Assembly (NCBI GenBank): GCA_021799255.1
Contig: JAJZAV010000009.1
Coordinates: 1 to 32,362, forward strand
Direction of reading: 5' to 3'
Origin: Bacillota bacterium
GTDB lineage: Bacteria > Bacillota > Bacilli > Alicyclobacillales > Alicyclobacillaceae
Length of the DNA stretch: 32,362 nucleotides
A model generated the notes under the pieces. It was not told where the DNA came from, did no database searches, and was given only the letters and a program-made list of their open reading frames with translations. Each line of letters opens with the position of its first letter. The first letter of the stretch is position 1. This document shows positions 2,722-16,437 of this stretch, in pieces. Both the position numbers and the translations under genes were made by a program.

Positions 2722-3729
2722 TCATTTCCCGGTTGCCGCGCTATCCGCGTCGGCGTTCGTCTGGTACATCCAAACCTGCATGGCGGCTCCAATCAAGGTA
2801 CTTTCCGTACCAAACGTAGCCGTTTCAATCGAGACGTCGCGCAACATCGACGTCATCCCGGCGTGTGCGATTCGTTCGGCTACTCCCGCCCGAATCCATT
2901 CGCCGTCTCTTAGCAACCCGCCGCCAAGCACTATCATCGTCGGATTAAACGTGTGCACGTAACCGACAATGGCAACGGAAAGAGCCAGAAGCATCTGTTC
3001 CACTACGGACGCTGCATCGCCGTCCTCTTCCTTCATCCAACGAAATACATCTTCGCTGGTTACGCGGCCGCCCTTTTCCCGATATTCACGGTAAGCGGGG
3101 GTCTTTGGAGCATCCTCGTACTTAGCCCAGGCGTCGCGCATTCGGGCGGCGACTCCACTCCCCGAAGCATACGTCTCAAGGCAGCCACGTTGGCCGCAAT
3201 TGCATAGGGGGCCGAACATGTCAACGCTTACGTGACCGAGTTCTCCAGCTCCGCCCCACGCGCCATGGAGCAGCTTCCCGTCAGCGAGGACTCCCCCGCC
3301 GACACCGGTGCCGAGAGCCAGGCAGATCACGTTCTTGTGCCCTTTGGCGGCACCGAGGCGGGCCTCTGTGATGGTCATCACGTTGACATCGTTGTCCACC
3401 CAGACGGGCAGACCGGAGCAACCGGACAGGAACTGTCGTAGCGGAACGTCGTTCCAATCTGAGATGTTGGGGGTCCCTGACAGGATCCGTCCATTTTCAA
3501 AGTCAATCTGGCCGGCGCTCCCTATCCCGATGCCCACCGGCTTTTGCTTCAAAGAGAGGGCCGCCTCGCGAATAAGGTCCCCAGTGATTTCGCGCAGGGC
3601 CGATATGATGGCCGTTCTGCCCTCCGGCGGGGTGCGAATGGTCCTCAGGGCCTCGATTTCTCCCGTCTCACTCACGAGGGCGGCGGCAATTTTCGTGCCG
3701 CCGATGTCTATGCCGATGCTGTATTCCAT
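2722..3729 (-). CDS. ROK-family sugar kinase, probable N-acetylmannosamine (or GlcNAc/glucose) kinase
   Basis: A 335-residue ROK kinase. It has the phosphate-binding DIGGTK at residues 8-13, the catalytic-Asp segment VDNDVN around residue 114, the ROK GELGH motif (163-167) and the structural zinc site made by that His and CNCGQRGC (176-183). ROK kinases phosphorylate glucose, GlcNAc, ManNAc and related hexoses at O6 with ATP. The start is the ATG at 3729, served by GAAGGAG with 9-base spacing; the frame extends further upstream without support. Lying directly after nanE, whose substrate is ManNAc-6-phosphate, a NanK role is the most economical reading, but ROK specificity cannot be fixed from sequence alone. 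Confidence 0.88.
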   Translation of the reverse strand: MEYSIGIDIGGTKIAAALVSETGEIEALRTIRTPPEGRTAIISALREITGDLIREAALSLKQKPVGIGIGSAGQIDFENGRILSGTPNISDWNDVPLRQFLSGCSGLPVWVDNDVNVMTITEARLGAAKGHKNVICLALGTGVGGGVLADGKLLHGAWGGAGELGHVSVDMFGPLCNCGQRGCLETYASGSGVAARMRDAWAKYEDAPKTPAYREYREKGGRVTSEDVFRWMKEEDGDAASVVEQMLLALSVAIVGYVHTFNPTMIVLGGGLLRDGEWIRAGVAERIAHAGMTSMLRDVSIETATFGTESTLIGAAMQVWMYQTNADADSAATGK

Positions 3730-3789
3730 TTCATCGAACTCCTTCTCGCGAGAGCCTTGTGAGAAGCAGTGGATCAACTTTGTCCAAAA

Positions 3790-4530
3790 TCATTTGGCTT
3801 CGTTGATGCGCAGATCTAGCGACTCTTCGTCCTCCCTAGTCCCCTGATTGATATATTCCACAAACGCACGAGTAATTTCCTGCGGCCGGGTAATCGCGGA
3901 TCCCACGACAACGGACCAGCAGCCCACTTCCAGGCACTGCTTCGCCTGTTCCGGATACGATATTCTTCCTTCCGCGACGATGGGGACCTTGACGCTCTTG
4001 GCCAAACGCTCCAGCAATGCGAAGTCCGGAACAGTTTTGTGCCTGGTGTATTCGGTGTAACCGGACATCGTGGATGCCACCAGGTCGGCCCCGTCTGCTT
4101 CGGCCCTTTGTCCTTCTTCAAAGGTTGATACGTCGGCCATGACGAGTATATGTGGGTATTTCTCCTTTACCTCTCGCAGAAAGTCGTGCGATGATTGCCC
4201 ATCCGGGCGCGGCCTCATGGTGGCGTCTAGCGCAACGATGTCCGCCCCATTTGCAACGACCTCATCGACCTCTCGCATCGTGGGCGTGATATACACCTCG
4301 GAATTCGGATATACACGTTTCACAATGCCAATAACCGGCAAACCCGTTGTCTCTTTGATGCTTCGTATATCCTCGCCTCCGTTGGCGCGGATGCCTACGG
4401 CTCCCCCGTCTTTCGCGGCAAGGGCCATGCGGGTCATCATACCGGACCCAAAGAGCGGGTCCTGCTCCTGAGCTTGGCAAGAAACAATCAGACCGTCTCG
4501 AATTTGTAGCAGAATTGATGCGTGCACCAT
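3790..4530 (-). CDS. nanE: N-acetylmannosamine-6-phosphate 2-epimerase
   Basis: A 246-residue protein with the full NanE pattern: LIVSCQA near the N-terminus, GGAVGIRANG, LPVIGIVKRVYP (catalytic lysine), VYITPTMREVDE, ALDATMRPRP, and VAEGRIS (catalytic glutamate) near residue 187. It converts ManNAc-6-phosphate to GlcNAc-6-phosphate, feeding NagA and NagB, both encoded about 10 kb away in the same locus. It is the first gene of a four-gene minus-strand operon (nanE, ROK kinase, two dehydrogenases) driven by a sigma-A type promoter at 4590-4618. No N-acetylneuraminate lyase is present in the window, so ManNAc may arise by another route or from genes beyond the left edge. Confidence 0.95.
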   Translation of the reverse strand: MVHASILLQIRDGLIVSCQAQEQDPLFGSGMMTRMALAAKDGGAVGIRANGGEDIRSIKETTGLPVIGIVKRVYPNSEVYITPTMREVDEVVANGADIVALDATMRPRPDGQSSHDFLREVKEKYPHILVMADVSTFEEGQRAEADGADLVASTMSGYTEYTRHKTVPDFALLERLAKSVKVPIVAEGRISYPEQAKQCLEVGCWSVVVGSAITRPQEITRAFVEYINQGTREDEESLDLRINEAK

Positions 4531-4577
4531 ATCACCACCCTACCCATCTTGGTATTCTGCAGTGAATAAAAATATCC

Positions 4578-4606
4578 TTCACATTTTACATTATAAGTGG
4601 AATAAT
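4578..4606 (+). promoter_or_regulatory. Promoter of the metallophosphoesterase gene
   Basis: TTCACA (4578-4583), a 17-base spacer and AATAAT (4601-4606). Transcription would begin near 4613, which argues against the GTG at 4614 and for the TTG at 4638 as start codon. Confidence 0.6.
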
Positions 4607-4618
4607 TCTCTCTGTGAA
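4590..4618 (-). promoter_or_regulatory. Sigma-A promoter of the nanE operon
   Basis: On the minus strand TTCACA (4618-4613), a 17-base spacer, and a perfect TATAAT (4595-4590). It directly faces and overlaps the plus-strand promoter of the phosphoesterase. Confidence 0.75.
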
Positions 4619-4637
4619 TCTGAAAGGCGGGATAGAA

Positions 4638-5471
4638 TTGTCGAAAAAAAATCCACTTCGAATCGCGGTCTTCTCCGACATGCACTTCATGGCCTGGAAA
4701 GACACCAACCTCCCTGTTGAATGGGTGCCGCAACTCGCCCATTCCCTGGTCGACGCGAAGTCTCTTTCTCCGGACATCGTCGTAATGAACGGCGATCTTA
4801 CCAACGGCAAAGATAGGGATTACGCTCTGGCCATGCAACACGTTAGGGCGAACATCTCCGTACCGACGTACTTCACGATGGGAAATCATGAATATTACGG
4901 ATTTTACGAAGATGATGAATATAGCTTCGAAATGGCCCAGCAACGGTTCATGCGACACACCAATCAGCAGTCCATCTATTACTCCGCCGAAATGCCGCAA
5001 GCTACGCTTTTGTTCCTTTCACCCGAGTGCTATAAGCCAGATGAGTTCGGAGACGCGGCTTGGATATCTGACGCCCAGCTGGCCTGGTTTGAAGGTGCTC
5101 TGCTTGAGGCACGAAACGATAGGCCCGTGCTGATATTTCTCCATCAACCCATCAACGATACGGTCGCTGACTCCACAGGGTACTGCGTGTCCAGCGACGA
5201 GGTCCGCCGGATTCTCGCAAAGAGACCCGGTTGCTTCATGATTTCCGGCCATACGCATTGTCGAATGGACAGGTCGGATCAATTCGTGGTCCAAGACGGG
5301 ACCGTTTTCGTCGGAGGCGGTTGTTGTTGCAATGACATCCCCCAATCGCGTTGGTTCGATGTTTACGAAGATCGCATCGACATTCGGATTCGCAACCACG
5401 ATACCCGCTCATGGGACGGGGATGACTTCGCACACACCGTTCGGCTGAACTCTGGTGCTGCCGTCGTGTGA
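4638..5471 (+). CDS. Calcineurin-like metallophosphoesterase
   Basis: A 277-residue cytoplasmic protein with the complete dimetal phosphoesterase signature in order: FSDMH (residues 12-16), NGDLTN, GNHE, HQP and GHTH. The family hydrolyses phosphomono- or diesters; the target here is unknown, with a sugar phosphate or a lipid-linked sugar possible from context. The TTG at 4638 is chosen because AAAGGCGGG lies 6 bases upstream and because the promoter places the transcript start near 4613; the alternative GTG at 4614 would be almost leaderless. This is the only plus-strand gene inside the sugar locus, and it shares its control region with nanE. It has no signal peptide or membrane segment. The cysteine-rich stretch GGGCCCND near the C-terminus is unusual. 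Confidence 0.85.
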   Translation: MSKKNPLRIAVFSDMHFMAWKDTNLPVEWVPQLAHSLVDAKSLSPDIVVMNGDLTNGKDRDYALAMQHVRANISVPTYFTMGNHEYYGFYEDDEYSFEMAQQRFMRHTNQQSIYYSAEMPQATLLFLSPECYKPDEFGDAAWISDAQLAWFEGALLEARNDRPVLIFLHQPINDTVADSTGYCVSSDEVRRILAKRPGCFMISGHTHCRMDRSDQFVVQDGTVFVGGGCCCNDIPQSRWFDVYEDRIDIRIRNHDTRSWDGDDFAHTVRLNSGAAVV

Positions 5472-5611: not shown

Positions 5612-6475
5612 CTAGTAAAGCTTTTCCAACACCGCTTTCGCCGTATGCTCAAGCGCGCTGAAAGTCATTTCTCTTCTCTTGATGGACACGATGGTAGACA
5701 GAATGTCGAGAACGTGGATCTGAGCAATCTTCGACGAGAAAGCACCTCCCTGCAACGGTGACTCTTTAGCCGCCGCCAATAGCACTGCGTCCGCGTAAGA
5801 CGTGATGGGAGAGCGCGCGTGATTCGTCAGGCAGATCACGAATGCCCCGTTGTTTTTGGCGATGCGAATCGCGTCTACGAGATCCTTGGTGCTGCCCGAC
5901 GTCGAGATCCCAAATACGATGTCTCCTTCCCCAACGAGGGAACAGTTCATCGCAATCACGTGCGAGTCGACGGCGCAGTGCGCGTCAAACCCGAGCCGCA
6001 TGAATCGATACTGGGCGTCGTTGGCCGTCAACCCGGACGATCCGACGCCAAAGAAAAACACGCGCTTCCCAGACAGGAGCACTTGGGTCACGCGGTGGAG
6101 ATCCGAAGATTTTAGTAACTGATCCGTGTCTTGCAGTGTATTCATATTGTTTGCCGTGATCTTGCTACACATTACTTCGATCTCGTCATCTTCTTCGATT
6201 TTTCCGTACACCTGTTGGCTCGGACTCACCAGATCCTGAGCGATGGCAAGCTTAAATTCCTGAAAGCCATGGAATCCGAGCTTGCGGCAAAACCGAATGA
6301 CGGTGGTCTCTCCAACCTCAGCGGCCTCGGCGAGGTCCGTGATGGATGAATAAACGGTGTTCTCGGCGTCGCCTTGCACGACATCAGCGACCTTTTGCTC
6401 GGCCTTCGACAAGCTTTGGTAGATACTTGTGATTAGCAGTAGCGTGTTGGAAGATTCACTTCCTAGTTTCTTCAT
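5612..6475 (-). CDS. MurR/RpiR-family transcriptional regulator with SIS domain
   Basis: A 287-residue regulator. Residues 1-80 form the RpiR helix-turn-helix (the DLAEAAEVGETTVIRFCRKLGFHGFQ region), and residues from about 125 onward form a phosphosugar-binding SIS domain with FFGVGSSG, FGISTSGSTKDLVDA and the C-terminal SPLQGGAFSS. Members sense a phosphorylated sugar, in characterised cases MurNAc-6-P, GlcN-6-P or similar, and repress or activate catabolic genes. The start ATG follows GAGGAGA closely. It is last in line after the opp operon and the hydrolase, 77 bases downstream of the latter. Likely targets are the overlapping nanE/phosphoesterase promoters and perhaps opp; the ligand is probably an intermediate of the ManNAc/GlcNAc route. 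Target and ligand are inference. Confidence 0.9.
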   Translation of the reverse strand: MKKLGSESSNTLLLITSIYQSLSKAEQKVADVVQGDAENTVYSSITDLAEAAEVGETTVIRFCRKLGFHGFQEFKLAIAQDLVSPSQQVYGKIEEDDEIEVMCSKITANNMNTLQDTDQLLKSSDLHRVTQVLLSGKRVFFFGVGSSGLTANDAQYRFMRLGFDAHCAVDSHVIAMNCSLVGEGDIVFGISTSGSTKDLVDAIRIAKNNGAFVICLTNHARSPITSYADAVLLAAAKESPLQGGAFSSKIAQIHVLDILSTIVSIKRREMTFSALEHTAKAVLEKLY

Positions 6476-11277: not shown

Positions 11278-13026
11278 TTACGATACTGTAATGTCGTTGA
11301 ACCACACCGGTGGCGTCGTTAACAGGAAACTGTTCGCCTTGTACCCGTGAACGTTCGAACGGATGAGCACTGGCTGGAGAGGCGTATAGATTGGAAGGTC
11401 GAATACCTGCTCCTCCTGCATGTAGAAGAACTGCTTCATGAGCGCCGTGTTGTTGGTGTTATACGCCTTGACCCCCAAGCGAATCCACTGAAGGATGCTC
11501 TTCGGCAGATTGTGAATGAGGATATTCGCAGCTTGCTCCTGTTGGAGTTTCGGCGGCATGCTCTTGTTGGCAATAACCTTTTGCCACTGTGTGTAGATGT
11601 TCATCGGCAGATACGGCGCGGTCCAGTCCTGACCAACTCCGGTGTTCAGGAAGGCGACGACCGATGTCGGCAACTCCAATTGTGGATAGACCACGTTGGA
11701 CGCATTCTGGCGGAACGCCACGCCGCTTGTGATGGGGTTGTTGTAGGTGGAGTAGAATTGACTGGCCGGCATGCCGTTGTACTTGACCGTGATGCCCAAG
11801 TTCTGCTGCCACATCTGTTGAATCGCCTCGGCGACAAGGTCAGGGGTACTGCCTACGCCGACATTAATCGAGAGCGTCGGGAATCCCTTCCCGCCCGGAT
11901 ACCCTGCTTGAGCCAGCAAAGCCTTTGCCTCTGTCGGATCATACGGGATGGCGTTCTTCTTGATCCAGGGATCCAGCCACGTCGGGGTCATGTAGTCGTA
12001 CGCCGGTGTGCCCGTCCCTTGGAGCACGTCCTTCGAGATGAGGTCCCTATTGATGGACATCATCAACGCCTTACGGACCAACGGATTGAGCAACGCGTTG
12101 TTCTGACTCGGCGCCACGTCCAAGGTGTACTGCGCAGCAGTCGGGAAGAAATGCAGTTCGCTCTTTAGCGTCGGATTCGAATCAACCGCCTTGATGTCAC
12201 TGGGGTTGATGATGGCCATATCCAGGGCACCATTCTCGAAGTCGACGAGCCCGGTTGACGAAGCTGTGTAGTTGAGGGTGATCTTTTTCAATTTCACCTT
12301 ATTGAAGTAGTACGGATTCGGAACCAGGGTGGCTGACGTGTTCGGGGTGAAACTGCTCACCATGTAAGGTCCGTCGGACACGATTTTGCTCGGAGTCGTC
12401 CAATCCGTCGCGGACATGCTGTTCACGACCTTCGGATCCAGCGGAACCGCCCAACCCATGGCAGGCAGCGTCAAGTCCTGAATCAACGTTGGATCTTTAC
12501 GAGTCAGCATGATCTGGAAGGTGTAATTGTTAACCGCCTTCACGCCAAGGGTGGAGGGGCTCTTCGTACCAGCCGCCACTTCCACTCCGTTGACGACGGG
12601 AAGGAACGCCGTTGCATCCATTCCGCCGCCGTCTTTTACGGCCGTGTTGGGATTAAAGGCCTGTTGGAAACCGAAGACGAAATCCTGGGCCGTAACCGCG
12701 TCTCCGTTGGAGAATTTCGCGTTATGGCGCAGATGGAAGGTCCACACCTTCCCATTTTTGCTGGTAGACCAACTCGTTGCAATGCCAGGCACAACGCCCT
12801 TGTCACTGTTGTGCACCAGGCCTTCAAAAATCCCCAACGAATCCGCATACAAAGACCACGTGTAAATGTCCGGAGAAAAGCCCCGCTTGTCCCCGATGAT
12901 GTACATGGAGAATGATCCACTGGAACTACTGGGTGCTGCCGATGCGGTTACAGCAAAGGCCGATAATGTACCCGTCAAAGTGAGTGCAGCTAAAGCACTC
13001 TTCGCTATCGTCATTCCTTTTGCCAC
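11278..13026 (-). CDS. oppA: Extracellular solute-binding protein of the Opp/Dpp family (family 5), without lipobox cysteine
   Basis: A 582-residue binding protein. The first 30 residues form a Sec signal (basic start, hydrophobic core, AFAVTASA before Ala-Pro), followed by a serine-rich linker. The rest is the SBP_bac_5 fold: VVPGIATSWSTSKNGKVWTFHLR, FSNGDAVTAQDFVFGFQQAF, VSDGPYMV and VRKALMMSINRDLI are typical. The start is the GTG at 13026, served by GGGAGGGG 7 bases upstream; the frame runs 96 bases further without support. It lacks any cysteine, so it cannot be a lipoprotein. It heads the opp operon behind a strong promoter and a 125-base leader. It should capture the substrate outside the membrane; peptide, glycopeptide and oligosaccharide are all possible for this family. 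Confidence 0.92.
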   Translation of the reverse strand: MAKGMTIAKSALAALTLTGTLSAFAVTASAAPSSSSGSFSMYIIGDKRGFSPDIYTWSLYADSLGIFEGLVHNSDKGVVPGIATSWSTSKNGKVWTFHLRHNAKFSNGDAVTAQDFVFGFQQAFNPNTAVKDGGGMDATAFLPVVNGVEVAAGTKSPSTLGVKAVNNYTFQIMLTRKDPTLIQDLTLPAMGWAVPLDPKVVNSMSATDWTTPSKIVSDGPYMVSSFTPNTSATLVPNPYYFNKVKLKKITLNYTASSTGLVDFENGALDMAIINPSDIKAVDSNPTLKSELHFFPTAAQYTLDVAPSQNNALLNPLVRKALMMSINRDLISKDVLQGTGTPAYDYMTPTWLDPWIKKNAIPYDPTEAKALLAQAGYPGGKGFPTLSINVGVGSTPDLVAEAIQQMWQQNLGITVKYNGMPASQFYSTYNNPITSGVAFRQNASNVVYPQLELPTSVVAFLNTGVGQDWTAPYLPMNIYTQWQKVIANKSMPPKLQQEQAANILIHNLPKSILQWIRLGVKAYNTNNTALMKQFFYMQEEQVFDLPIYTPLQPVLIRSNVHGYKANSFLLTTPPVWFNDITVS

Positions 13027-13033
13027 GTATGTT

Positions 13034-13141
13034 CCCCTCCCGTCAGGTATCCAATCTTTGAAGGAATAGTTACGATGTAGACCCCCCGGTTCACCTCTCT
13101 TATTATCGAAATTTGTCTCCATTTTATATCGATCTGACGGA
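13034..13141 (-). promoter_or_regulatory. oppA mRNA leader with possible Shine-Dalgarno-occluding pairing
   Basis: The transcript should begin near 13152. TCCGTCAG near its 5' end (minus strand of 13134-13141) can pair with CTGACGGG (minus strand of 13039-13046), whose last three bases are the start of the GGGAGGGG ribosome site of oppA. Only one G-U pair is needed. A switch function is inference. Confidence 0.35.
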
Positions 13142-13158
13142 TATTTCTACCCACAACT

Positions 13159-13187
13159 ATACTAGACAGAAGAAAATTTGTTGTCAA
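13159..13187 (-). promoter_or_regulatory. Sigma-A promoter of the opp operon
   Basis: Minus strand: perfect TTGACA (13187-13182), a 17-base spacer and TAGTAT (13164-13159). Immediately upstream of the -35 box is the inverted repeat CTGAaaaaTCAG (13188-13199), a possible operator. Confidence 0.72.
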
Positions 13188-14502: not shown

Positions 14503-15271
14503 GCTCTTCTCCCCCGTAGGACCCTTCATCGAGGAACAGGTGGCAGTTCGCGTGCTCTCGCAAAACCGTTGCGGGACAGTCTGGCGCGATGGCCGCATGA
14601 AGTGTTTTGCCAACGGCGACGCGCTTCGTTTCGCCGGGGACCACCCCAAAGATCCTCCTCGCACTCATGAGCGTGGGAATGGTCAAGGTTAGTGCGGTGG
14701 ACGGGACGTCCTCGACGGTGGGAAAGCAACCGTCATGCACCTGCTGTAGGCGACACTCTGCGTCAAGGGTGACCTGCTTCATGACGAGAGGATCCGAAAA
14801 GTCTGCGACAGCGGGATCGTTAAAAGCCAGATGCCCATTCTCACCAATGCCCAGACAGACGATATCGATGGGCGCCTCGGAAATAAGATTTGCGTAGCGC
14901 TCGCATTCGCGCTCGGGTGAACTGACTGCGTTCATCCGATGAACCTCCCCAGGCTCCACGGAGGCGAACAGGTGGAGGTTGAGATAATGCGCGAACGAGG
15001 CCTCGTCCAAAGGCGTGAGACCGACGTATTCGTCCATCTGAAACGCGGTCACGCATCTCCAATCGATGTCGGCTTCCTGGCCAAGCGCCGCAAGAAATTC
15101 GTTTTGGGACGGAGCGGCGGCAAACACCATTCTGATGGCCGGCTGATTGATGAGCAAGGCCCTCATCTCTTCGGCCACCGCCTTCGCGGCAAGGCGACCG
15201 AGGGTGCTCCTGTCCTTGCATACCGTTACCGTCATTTTGCCCGCCACAAACGGTCGTCGATGGCTTAGCAT
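14492..15271 (-). CDS. nagB: Glucosamine-6-phosphate deaminase/isomerase
   Basis: A 259-residue protein with the NagB active-site segments FQMDEYVGL (catalytic Asp80) and CLGIGENGHLAFNDP (140-153), followed by the sugar-phosphate loop region TLTIPTLMSARRIFGVVPG and the C-terminal KTLHAAIAPDCPATVLREH. It converts GlcN-6-phosphate to fructose-6-phosphate and ammonia, the exit of the amino-sugar route into glycolysis. The start ATG at 15271 has GAGGGGG 7 bases upstream, inside the end of the ROK repressor gene (7-base overlap), and its end overlaps nagA, so the three genes are translationally coupled. The N-terminus is some 12 residues longer than usual; MTVTV at 15235 is a possible but less supported start. 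Confidence 0.93.
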   Translation of the reverse strand: MLSHRRPFVAGKMTVTVCKDRSTLGRLAAKAVAEEMRALLINQPAIRMVFAAAPSQNEFLAALGQEADIDWRCVTAFQMDEYVGLTPLDEASFAHYLNLHLFASVEPGEVHRMNAVSSPERECERYANLISEAPIDIVCLGIGENGHLAFNDPAVADFSDPLVMKQVTLDAECRLQQVHDGCFPTVEDVPSTALTLTIPTLMSARRIFGVVPGETKRVAVGKTLHAAIAPDCPATVLREHANCHLFLDEGSYGGEEHAG

Positions 15272-16437
15272 TCGGTTTCCCCCTCGAAGTGTAATATGAC
15301 GGCTTGCGCCATCCCTACGGCGGAGGATTGCGGCATATCCACGAATTCAAAGTGGGTTCTTTGACCGGGATACGAAAGCGCCAATCGCCTCGCCTCCCCC
15401 ACGGTCGCCCGGCAAAACTCCTCCGTCTCGCTGTATGGACTGTCCACGATGACCCGTTCTGGATTCGTAAGATTGATGACGCTCGCAAGCGCCCGTCCTA
15501 CGTACGTGCCATATGTTGCTAAAAGGGTTACGTATTCGGTGTGACAGGCGCTAGAAATGGGACCGCATGCTGTCTTCAACTCATCCCAGGTATGGATGGA
15601 TGAATCTTGCCGCAGAACGGCGACAGCGCGCGGAACTCTAACGAGAGACTCGAGGCATCCGCGCTGTCCGCACGTGCAGTGGGGTCCATCCTTGTCCACG
15701 CTGATGTGACCAATCTCGCCCGCCGTAAAGGTCGCGCCCTGGAGAAGCCTGTGGCCCACGACGAGCGCGCCGCCCACGCCTTCGTCAATGCGGACGTAGA
15801 ACATGCTCTGCGCGTGATGCGTTGCGTCAGCAAACGGCGACAGGGCAGCCGCCTGAACCCGATTCAGGGCCAGGATGGGAATGTCGCGGCTTTGGAGGCG
15901 CAGATGCTCTCGGATGGCCACGTCGCGCCAACCGAGGTGGGTCGATGAGTGAACGATGCCGGCATCGGGATCGACCAGGCCAGGTACGGCGACGCCGATG
16001 CCAAGAACCCTTGAATATCTGTCGAGGACCTCGTTCAGATCCTCTGATAAAAGCCCGAGCAGGGCGCGAGCATCGCTCGTTGATGCAGGGTTCTGCGTTG
16101 ACTCCAAAACGTCCCCAGCGTAGTCCGTCACTACCATTTGATAATGGTCCCGCCTGATGTGAATGCCGACCGCCTGATACGATCTCGTTTGCAGGGTCAC
16201 TTCAACCCGTGGACGCCCAACTCCGCTAGTGTCCGTGCCGGTTTCCTTCACAACTCCGTCCGCAATCAGCTTGTCGATGATGATGGAGACGGTATTCTTG
16301 CTCAAGTGGAGATCCTCGGCCATCCGCACCCGGGTGCTAGTTTGGTGCTTGCGCAGGTGAGCGAGGATTCGCTTCTCGTTTTGCGCGCGCAGGATGGCCG
16401 TACCTTTCGCAACGGATCTCCCCACGGCTTTCGTCAT
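15265..16437 (-). CDS. ROK-family transcriptional repressor (NagC/XylR type)
   Basis: A 390-residue protein. Residues 20-70 form a winged helix-turn-helix (LHLSKNTVSIIIDKLIADGVV) and the rest is a ROK domain with GEIGHISVD and the zinc motif CTCGQRGCLE. The segment where the kinase has NDVN reads NRVQ, so the catalytic aspartate is missing and the protein should only sense sugar, not phosphorylate it. ROK repressors release DNA on binding a sugar or sugar phosphate such as GlcNAc-6-phosphate. The start has an ideal AGGAGG 8 bases upstream. It sits between the M55 peptidase and nagB in the same operon, suggesting autoregulation; the inverted boxes at 20277-20339 are candidate operators. Confidence 0.91.
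   Translation of the reverse strand: MTKAVGRSVAKGTAILRAQNEKRILAHLRKHQTSTRVRMAEDLHLSKNTVSIIIDKLIADGVVKETGTDTSGVGRPRVEVTLQTRSYQAVGIHIRRDHYQMVVTDYAGDVLESTQNPASTSDARALLGLLSEDLNEVLDRYSRVLGIGVAVPGLVDPDAGIVHSSTHLGWRDVAIREHLRLQSRDIPILALNRVQAAALSPFADATHHAQSMFYVRIDEGVGGALVVGHRLLQGATFTAGEIGHISVDKDGPHCTCGQRGCLESLVRVPRAVAVLRQDSSIHTWDELKTACGPISSACHTEYVTLLATYGTYVGRALASVINLTNPERVIVDSPYSETEEFCRATVGEARRLALSYPGQRTHFEFVDMPQSSAVGMAQAVILHFEGETEC

Follow-up and report, generated by a model that had tools for sequence, protein, structure and literature searches.

We analyzed a stretch of 32,362 nucleotides from a member of the Alicyclobacillaceae, hereafter the window, which contains a divergent pair of transcription units. 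On the left, nanE, predicted to encode N-acetylmannosamine-6-phosphate 2-epimerase (3790-4530, minus strand; 306.9 bits against a cut-off of 189), is followed by a gene for a ROK family sugar kinase (2722-3777, minus strand), which probably belongs to the same operon, and then by genes for two Gfo/Idh oxidoreductases. On the right lies a gene for a calcineurin-like phosphoesterase (4638-5471, plus strand), whose likely start is the TTG at 4638, after GAAAGGCGG (4622-4630). Next to it, rpiR encodes an RpiR-family regulator with HTH_6 and SIS domains (5612-6475, minus strand). Judging from gene order and spacing, rpiR stands at the far end of a putative opp operon that begins with a solute-binding gene near 13.1 kb and continues through oppBCDF and a hydrolase gene; its predicted promoter (13159-13187, minus strand) reads TTGACA-17-TAGTAT. 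We note that positions 1-20295 hold a cluster including nagA, nagB, a NagC-like ROK protein, an M55 D-aminopeptidase, the opp importer, and several Gfo/Idh proteins, which suggests that amino-sugar peptides or pieces of the cell wall are scavenged. No sialic-acid lyase gene (nanA) was found among the window proteins scanned.

The 107-bp intergenic region between nanE and the phosphoesterase gene (36% GC) contains two predicted sigma-A promoters that face each other and interlock. The promoter of the phosphoesterase gene (4578-4606, plus strand) consists of TTCACA (4578-4583), a 17-bp spacer, and AATAAT (4601-4606) preceded by TG, with 10 of 12 positions matching and a start expected near 4613. 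The promoter of the nanE-ROK operon (4590-4618, minus strand) consists of TTCACA (4618-4613), a 17-bp spacer, and TATAAT (4595-4590), with 11 of 12 positions matching and a start expected near 4583. A preliminary description of this DNA had reported both promoters at these positions and their -35 boxes as an exact TTCACA...TGTGAA inverted repeat, and both observations were confirmed. It had also argued that polymerase can occupy only one of the two promoters at a given moment, which the overlap of the sites supports. With 17 bp in common, the two are overlapping divergent promoters by sequence; they do not fall into the class of bidirectional promoters with a shared -10 box, as their -10 boxes are separate (4590-4595 and 4601-4606).

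The interlocked promoters are the best plus-strand match and the best minus-strand match of the window, in which only three promoter-like sites reach at least 10/12, the third being the opp site at 13187-13159. Interlocked pairs with at least 9/12 on each strand appeared in 10 of 2,000 dinucleotide shuffles of the intergenic region, and a pair as good as the observed one in none. Across 60 shuffles of the whole window, the mean number of pairs at the 9/12 threshold was 0.067, versus one in the window. Since shuffles rarely or never match the pair, chance does not account for the overlap, which looks usable. By sequence comparison, the predicted interlock is strong in this lineage only: weak overlapping opposed matches (8-9/12) were present at five relative loci (L041, L046, L047, L057, and L058), where promoters may therefore overlap as well. 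We considered strong interlock as an ancestral trait and rejected it, because no interlocked pair with at least 9/12 on each strand occurred in 12 relative loci of 18-20 kb each.

The regions of relatives have a bipartite element in common, represented in the window by two candidate operator arms to which no strand was assigned. Arm O1 (4568-4577; AAAAATATCC, with the 12-mer AAAATATCCTTC at 4569-4580) is flanked by GTGAA (4562-4566) and TTCAC (4578-4582), and lies directly upstream of the plus-strand -35 box and directly downstream of where nanE transcription is expected to start. The weaker arm O2 (4599-4608; GGAATAATTC) lies over the plus-strand -10 box, within the spacer of the minus-strand promoter. 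The centers of the arms are 31 bp apart, or about three helical turns. The pattern ATWTCC-N20-22-GGA, in which GGA is joined by an AT-rich tract and which we wrote post hoc after inspecting the sequences, was present in all nine divergent nanE-phosphoesterase regions, from six genera (L045-L047 represent one genus; L057 and L058 another). A looser version of the pattern (GGA or GGT) was found in 2 to 17 of 1,000 shuffles per region, and a first fixed pattern, GGAWATTTCTC, was not above chance in the window. The TTCACA...TGTGAA repeat, which the preliminary description had offered as the operator, is instead absent from the other divergent nanE-phosphoesterase regions (0/8) and was rejected in that role. 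In these regions, the feature kept by evolution is the candidate repressor-site pair across the promoters, not the overlap itself.

Two features of this segment had been missed in the preliminary description: the plus-strand -10 box lies inside the second conserved site, O2, and a local GTGAA-N11-TTCAC repeat (4562-4582) takes in the left TTCACA and surrounds the conserved core. GTGAA or TTCAC occurs three times in window positions 4562-4618 (at 4562, 4578, and 4614) and is not conserved in relatives; because of this recurrence, the left -35 box doubles as a flank of O1.

We also learned a motif by EM, GAAATATCCTCC, on 18 non-window regions; its log-likelihood was 90, versus 35-41 in eight shuffled sets. 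Applied to the unseen window, the motif ranked position 13136 in the opp promoter region first (17.5 bits), position 4569 in O1 second (16.2 bits), and position 431, inside an ORF, third (14.3 bits). The top two positions adjoin the only three window promoters that reach at least 10/12. O2 on its own is weak under this model (rank 30, 7.35 bits). In a leave-one-genome-out analysis of 21 regions, which like the 18 EM regions had been picked after motif-like sequence was noticed in many of them, 12 of 21 scored at no more than 1 of 300 shuffles and 15 of 21 at no more than 9. Six of the 21 (L057, L041_SBP2, L048_SBP, L043_rpiR, L050_nagB, and L049_PE) were not significant. The region sets covered neither rpiR genes inside operons nor opp genes without a visible promoter of their own.

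The second copy of the element (13108-13150, minus strand; GTAGAAATATCC-N18-GGAGACAAATTTC) lies directly downstream of the opp promoter and contains the best motif match of the window. As listed, the solute-binding ORF begins at 13122, inside this copy, so translation probably begins near 13014 in reality, ahead of a signal-peptide-like stretch. By eye, two arms with an 18-nt gap were also recognized in the opp copies of L044 and L048 and in the rpiR copies of L045-L047; the motif precedes rpiR in L045-L048. An exact search of the source genome for RAAATWTCCKYC returned 11 sites, versus 4 with the reversed control. Two of the 11 are those in the window, and a third (G000:C31:10918) precedes a sulfatase gene, its partner arm lying at a distance of 21 nt. 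The other eight are mostly located within ORFs or lack a clear link, and none was tied to a pathway gene. The sulfatase gene (G000:C31:9401-10929; loci L084 and L085) is unlinked to the window and encodes a PF00884 protein with SGSH_C. Comparable arm pairs occur upstream of its orthologues in G061, G062, and G002; in the G063 region the left arm is poor and only the right arm is good. The sulfatase element suggests that breakdown of sulfated amino sugars may also be under RpiR control. In G023, a Gfo/Idh gene located behind an MFS transporter is preceded by a motif-like site (L042:15994), which makes it a possible further member of the set.

We then compared gene arrangement across the family. 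nanE and the phosphoesterase gene are divergent in eight other family genomes (L041, L042, L044, L045, L046, L047, L057, and L058), and several of these loci are also found in named Alicyclobacillus records. The phosphoesterase gene is divergent from rpiR in L048 and from an opp solute-binding gene in L049. It therefore faces a gene of the set in all 11 genomes that have it (nanE in nine, rpiR in one, and the opp solute-binding gene in one). Among 41 family genomes, the phosphoesterase was found in 11 (E 1e-50) and RpiR in 13 (E 1e-95), including all 11 phosphoesterase genomes, where its gene is mostly close to the phosphoesterase gene; kinship alone could be the source of part of these co-occurrence and arrangement counts. 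The phosphoesterase match of G015 (L048:8917-9717) crosses one in-frame TAA, which may mark the end of the gene or a true disruption, and protein alignment A2 was made without L048 because the translated match contains a stop codon. The Paenibacillus and Bacillota phosphoesterase loci L065-L067 have no divergent nanE and were therefore left out of the footprint; loci L069-L072 yielded no window homologues.

The protein encoded at 5612-6475 belongs to the RpiR/MurR family, with an N-terminal rpiR-type HTH (PF01418, 84.1 bits) and a C-terminal SIS domain (PF01380, 84.8 bits), both above cut-off. Its helix-turn-helix is nearly invariant across 10 genomes. Its best solved match is 4IVN (E 2.9e-42), which we take to be the structure of Vibrio vulnificus NanR. 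The SIS domain carries GGAFxSK, common to 4IVN and absent from 8JU9, and this hints at an amino-sugar phosphate as a candidate ligand. The earlier proposal of RpiR as regulator thus gains from three lines of evidence: the conserved element, the co-occurrence, and the motif before rpiR in some relatives. Together these support RpiR as the best candidate regulator of the divergon.

We consider it likely that both directions are co-repressed by RpiR, a relative of NanR, bound at the two arms, and that an amino-sugar phosphate ends this repression by releasing the protein. Positions 4562-4618 would then be the control region of the divergon, serving nanE-ROK leftward and the phosphoesterase gene rightward. 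RpiR would occupy O1, which lies just within the nanE transcript and adjoins the plus-strand -35 box, together with O2, as dimers or as a bridging tetramer, and would block polymerase at both promoters. The copy of the element at opp would let it block that promoter too, which drives rpiR itself. The releasing ligand would probably be N-acetylmannosamine-6-phosphate or a related compound, and both directions would be induced together. The interlock would let one arm pair serve both promoters and couple their firing, without itself being the switch. Because the candidate repressor-site pair is kept across both promoters, both genes are probably switched together. Co-regulation also fits the presence of the same element at nanE, the phosphoesterase gene, opp, and some rpiR genes, and the orientation of the phosphoesterase gene toward the set in 11 of 11 genomes.

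The preliminary description had instead expected nanE and phosphoesterase expression to be mutually exclusive, through polymerase exclusion, or switched by a regulator on TTCACA...TGTGAA, with RpiR as the candidate. Two good overlapping promoter matches, above chance, speak for such a switch, as do plasmid pLS20, which switches via overlapping divergent promoters, and E. coli bidirectional promoters, at which one direction can be repressed when the other is strongly activated (PMC12825309). Against it, the repeat and the strong interlock are not kept in relatives and the operator pair alone is, and the element carried by the genes on both sides is also present at the other members of the set, including opp and, in some relatives, rpiR. 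Moreover, polymerase competition requires high activity: at five E. coli bidirectional promoters, basal activity brought negligible competition, and only strong activation of one direction made it visible (PMC12825309). Mutual exclusion would hence be possible only at high output and is not our default interpretation; we regard it as an unlikely account of the region. A more elaborate scheme seems to us quite unlikely. In it, an RpiR tetramer bridging the two in-phase arms would do more than block: with the strong arm placed at the nanE start and the weak one on the phosphoesterase -10 box, partial ligand release would free one polymerase orientation first, and in this lineage the interlock would have evolved to select direction in a dose-dependent way, within a sulfated amino-sugar regulon that includes the unlinked sulfatase.

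RpiR could also be an activator here, like its relative NanR of S. pneumoniae at nan operon-I, or repress one direction while activating the other. O1 lies directly upstream of the plus-strand -35 box, and the S. pneumoniae protein is proposed to activate as a tetramer that extends to a weak half-site at a distance of about 23 bp, reminiscent of strong O1 and weak O2 (excerpts of PMC12713135). We nevertheless doubt that RpiR activates, since O2 lies over the plus-strand -10 box, O1 in the nanE start region, and the opp copy directly downstream of its promoter, a blocking position; the same preprint describes every other reported RpiR regulator as a repressor (PMC12713135). A different regulator might target the conserved pair, for example the NagC-like ROK protein (15265-16437) encoded in the window beside nagB, but we consider this very unlikely given the distribution of that protein. 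In a comparison limited to regulators of the window cluster, RpiR was present in 11 of 11 phosphoesterase genomes, and ROK homologues of at least 44% identity were present in 2 of 11 (G000 and G002; 4 of 11 at E 1e-40), on which basis we rejected the ROK protein as binder. Finally, the overlap could be an accident of an AT-rich spacer, with one or both promoter matches unused and transcription starting elsewhere. Relatives do have weak matches only at this place (8-9/12), but none of the 2,000 shuffles equaled the pair, which combines the best plus-strand with the best minus-strand match of the window, and we judge an accident highly improbable.

Co-repression by RpiR would make the arm pair a candidate operator, and nanE-ROK, the phosphoesterase gene, the opp importer, rpiR, and the sulfatase gene a candidate regulon, for RpiR in Alicyclobacillus-type bacteria, both of them testable. 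The comparison separates a striking promoter overlap, strong in this lineage only, from a regulatory element kept by evolution. Among open-licence papers, we found none linking Alicyclobacillus with RpiR or with nanE and, in the wording searched, none joining RpiR with overlapping divergent promoters. Control of this kind is already known, and the window region is a new example of it.

The nan genes of V. vulnificus have a divergent nanTPSLAR/nanEK arrangement. Their NanR resembles the window RpiR in being an RpiR-family regulator of amino-sugar genes with two adjacent sites and N-acetylmannosamine-6-phosphate as effector (excerpts of PMC12713135), an effector that is a proposal for the window protein, and 4IVN is the best solved match of the latter. 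In contrast, the partners here are a phosphoesterase and an opp-type importer, no sialic-acid lyase is among the scanned window proteins, and the arms are about 10 bp each, 31 bp apart, versus sites of about 55 bp each. At the E. coli MurR operator, a tetramer is proposed to bridge two sites 17 bp apart over the -35 and -10 boxes; the genes are different, and the excerpted description has no interlocked promoter pair (PMC12713135). Because MurR and V. vulnificus NanR are described with two adjacent sites (PMC12713135), the two-arm plan is already known for the family. The NanR sites of C. perfringens (GAAAAATATTTTC; excerpts of PMC4509764) and S. pneumoniae (TCTGAAAGTACTTTTAGA; excerpts of PMC12713135) are AT-rich near-palindromes like GAAATATCC here. 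Judged by the one printed site of each in those excerpts, they are more symmetric than the window arms, whereas the core here carries CC/GG at its ends and is paired with a second arm at a fixed distance. S. pneumoniae NanR differs further in that it activates, as stated in excerpts of PMC12713135. For the promoter pair itself, the excerpted accounts of the E. coli bidirectional set and of pLS20 Pr/Pc describe the same principle, in which opposed polymerases exclude each other and one operator can control both. E. coli bioA/bioB is likewise a case of overlapping divergent promoters. The E. coli bidirectional class has one shared -10 box and starts whose distance is commonly 10, 18, or 23 bp (PMC12825309), whereas the window promoters have separate -10 boxes and inferred starts about 30 bp apart.
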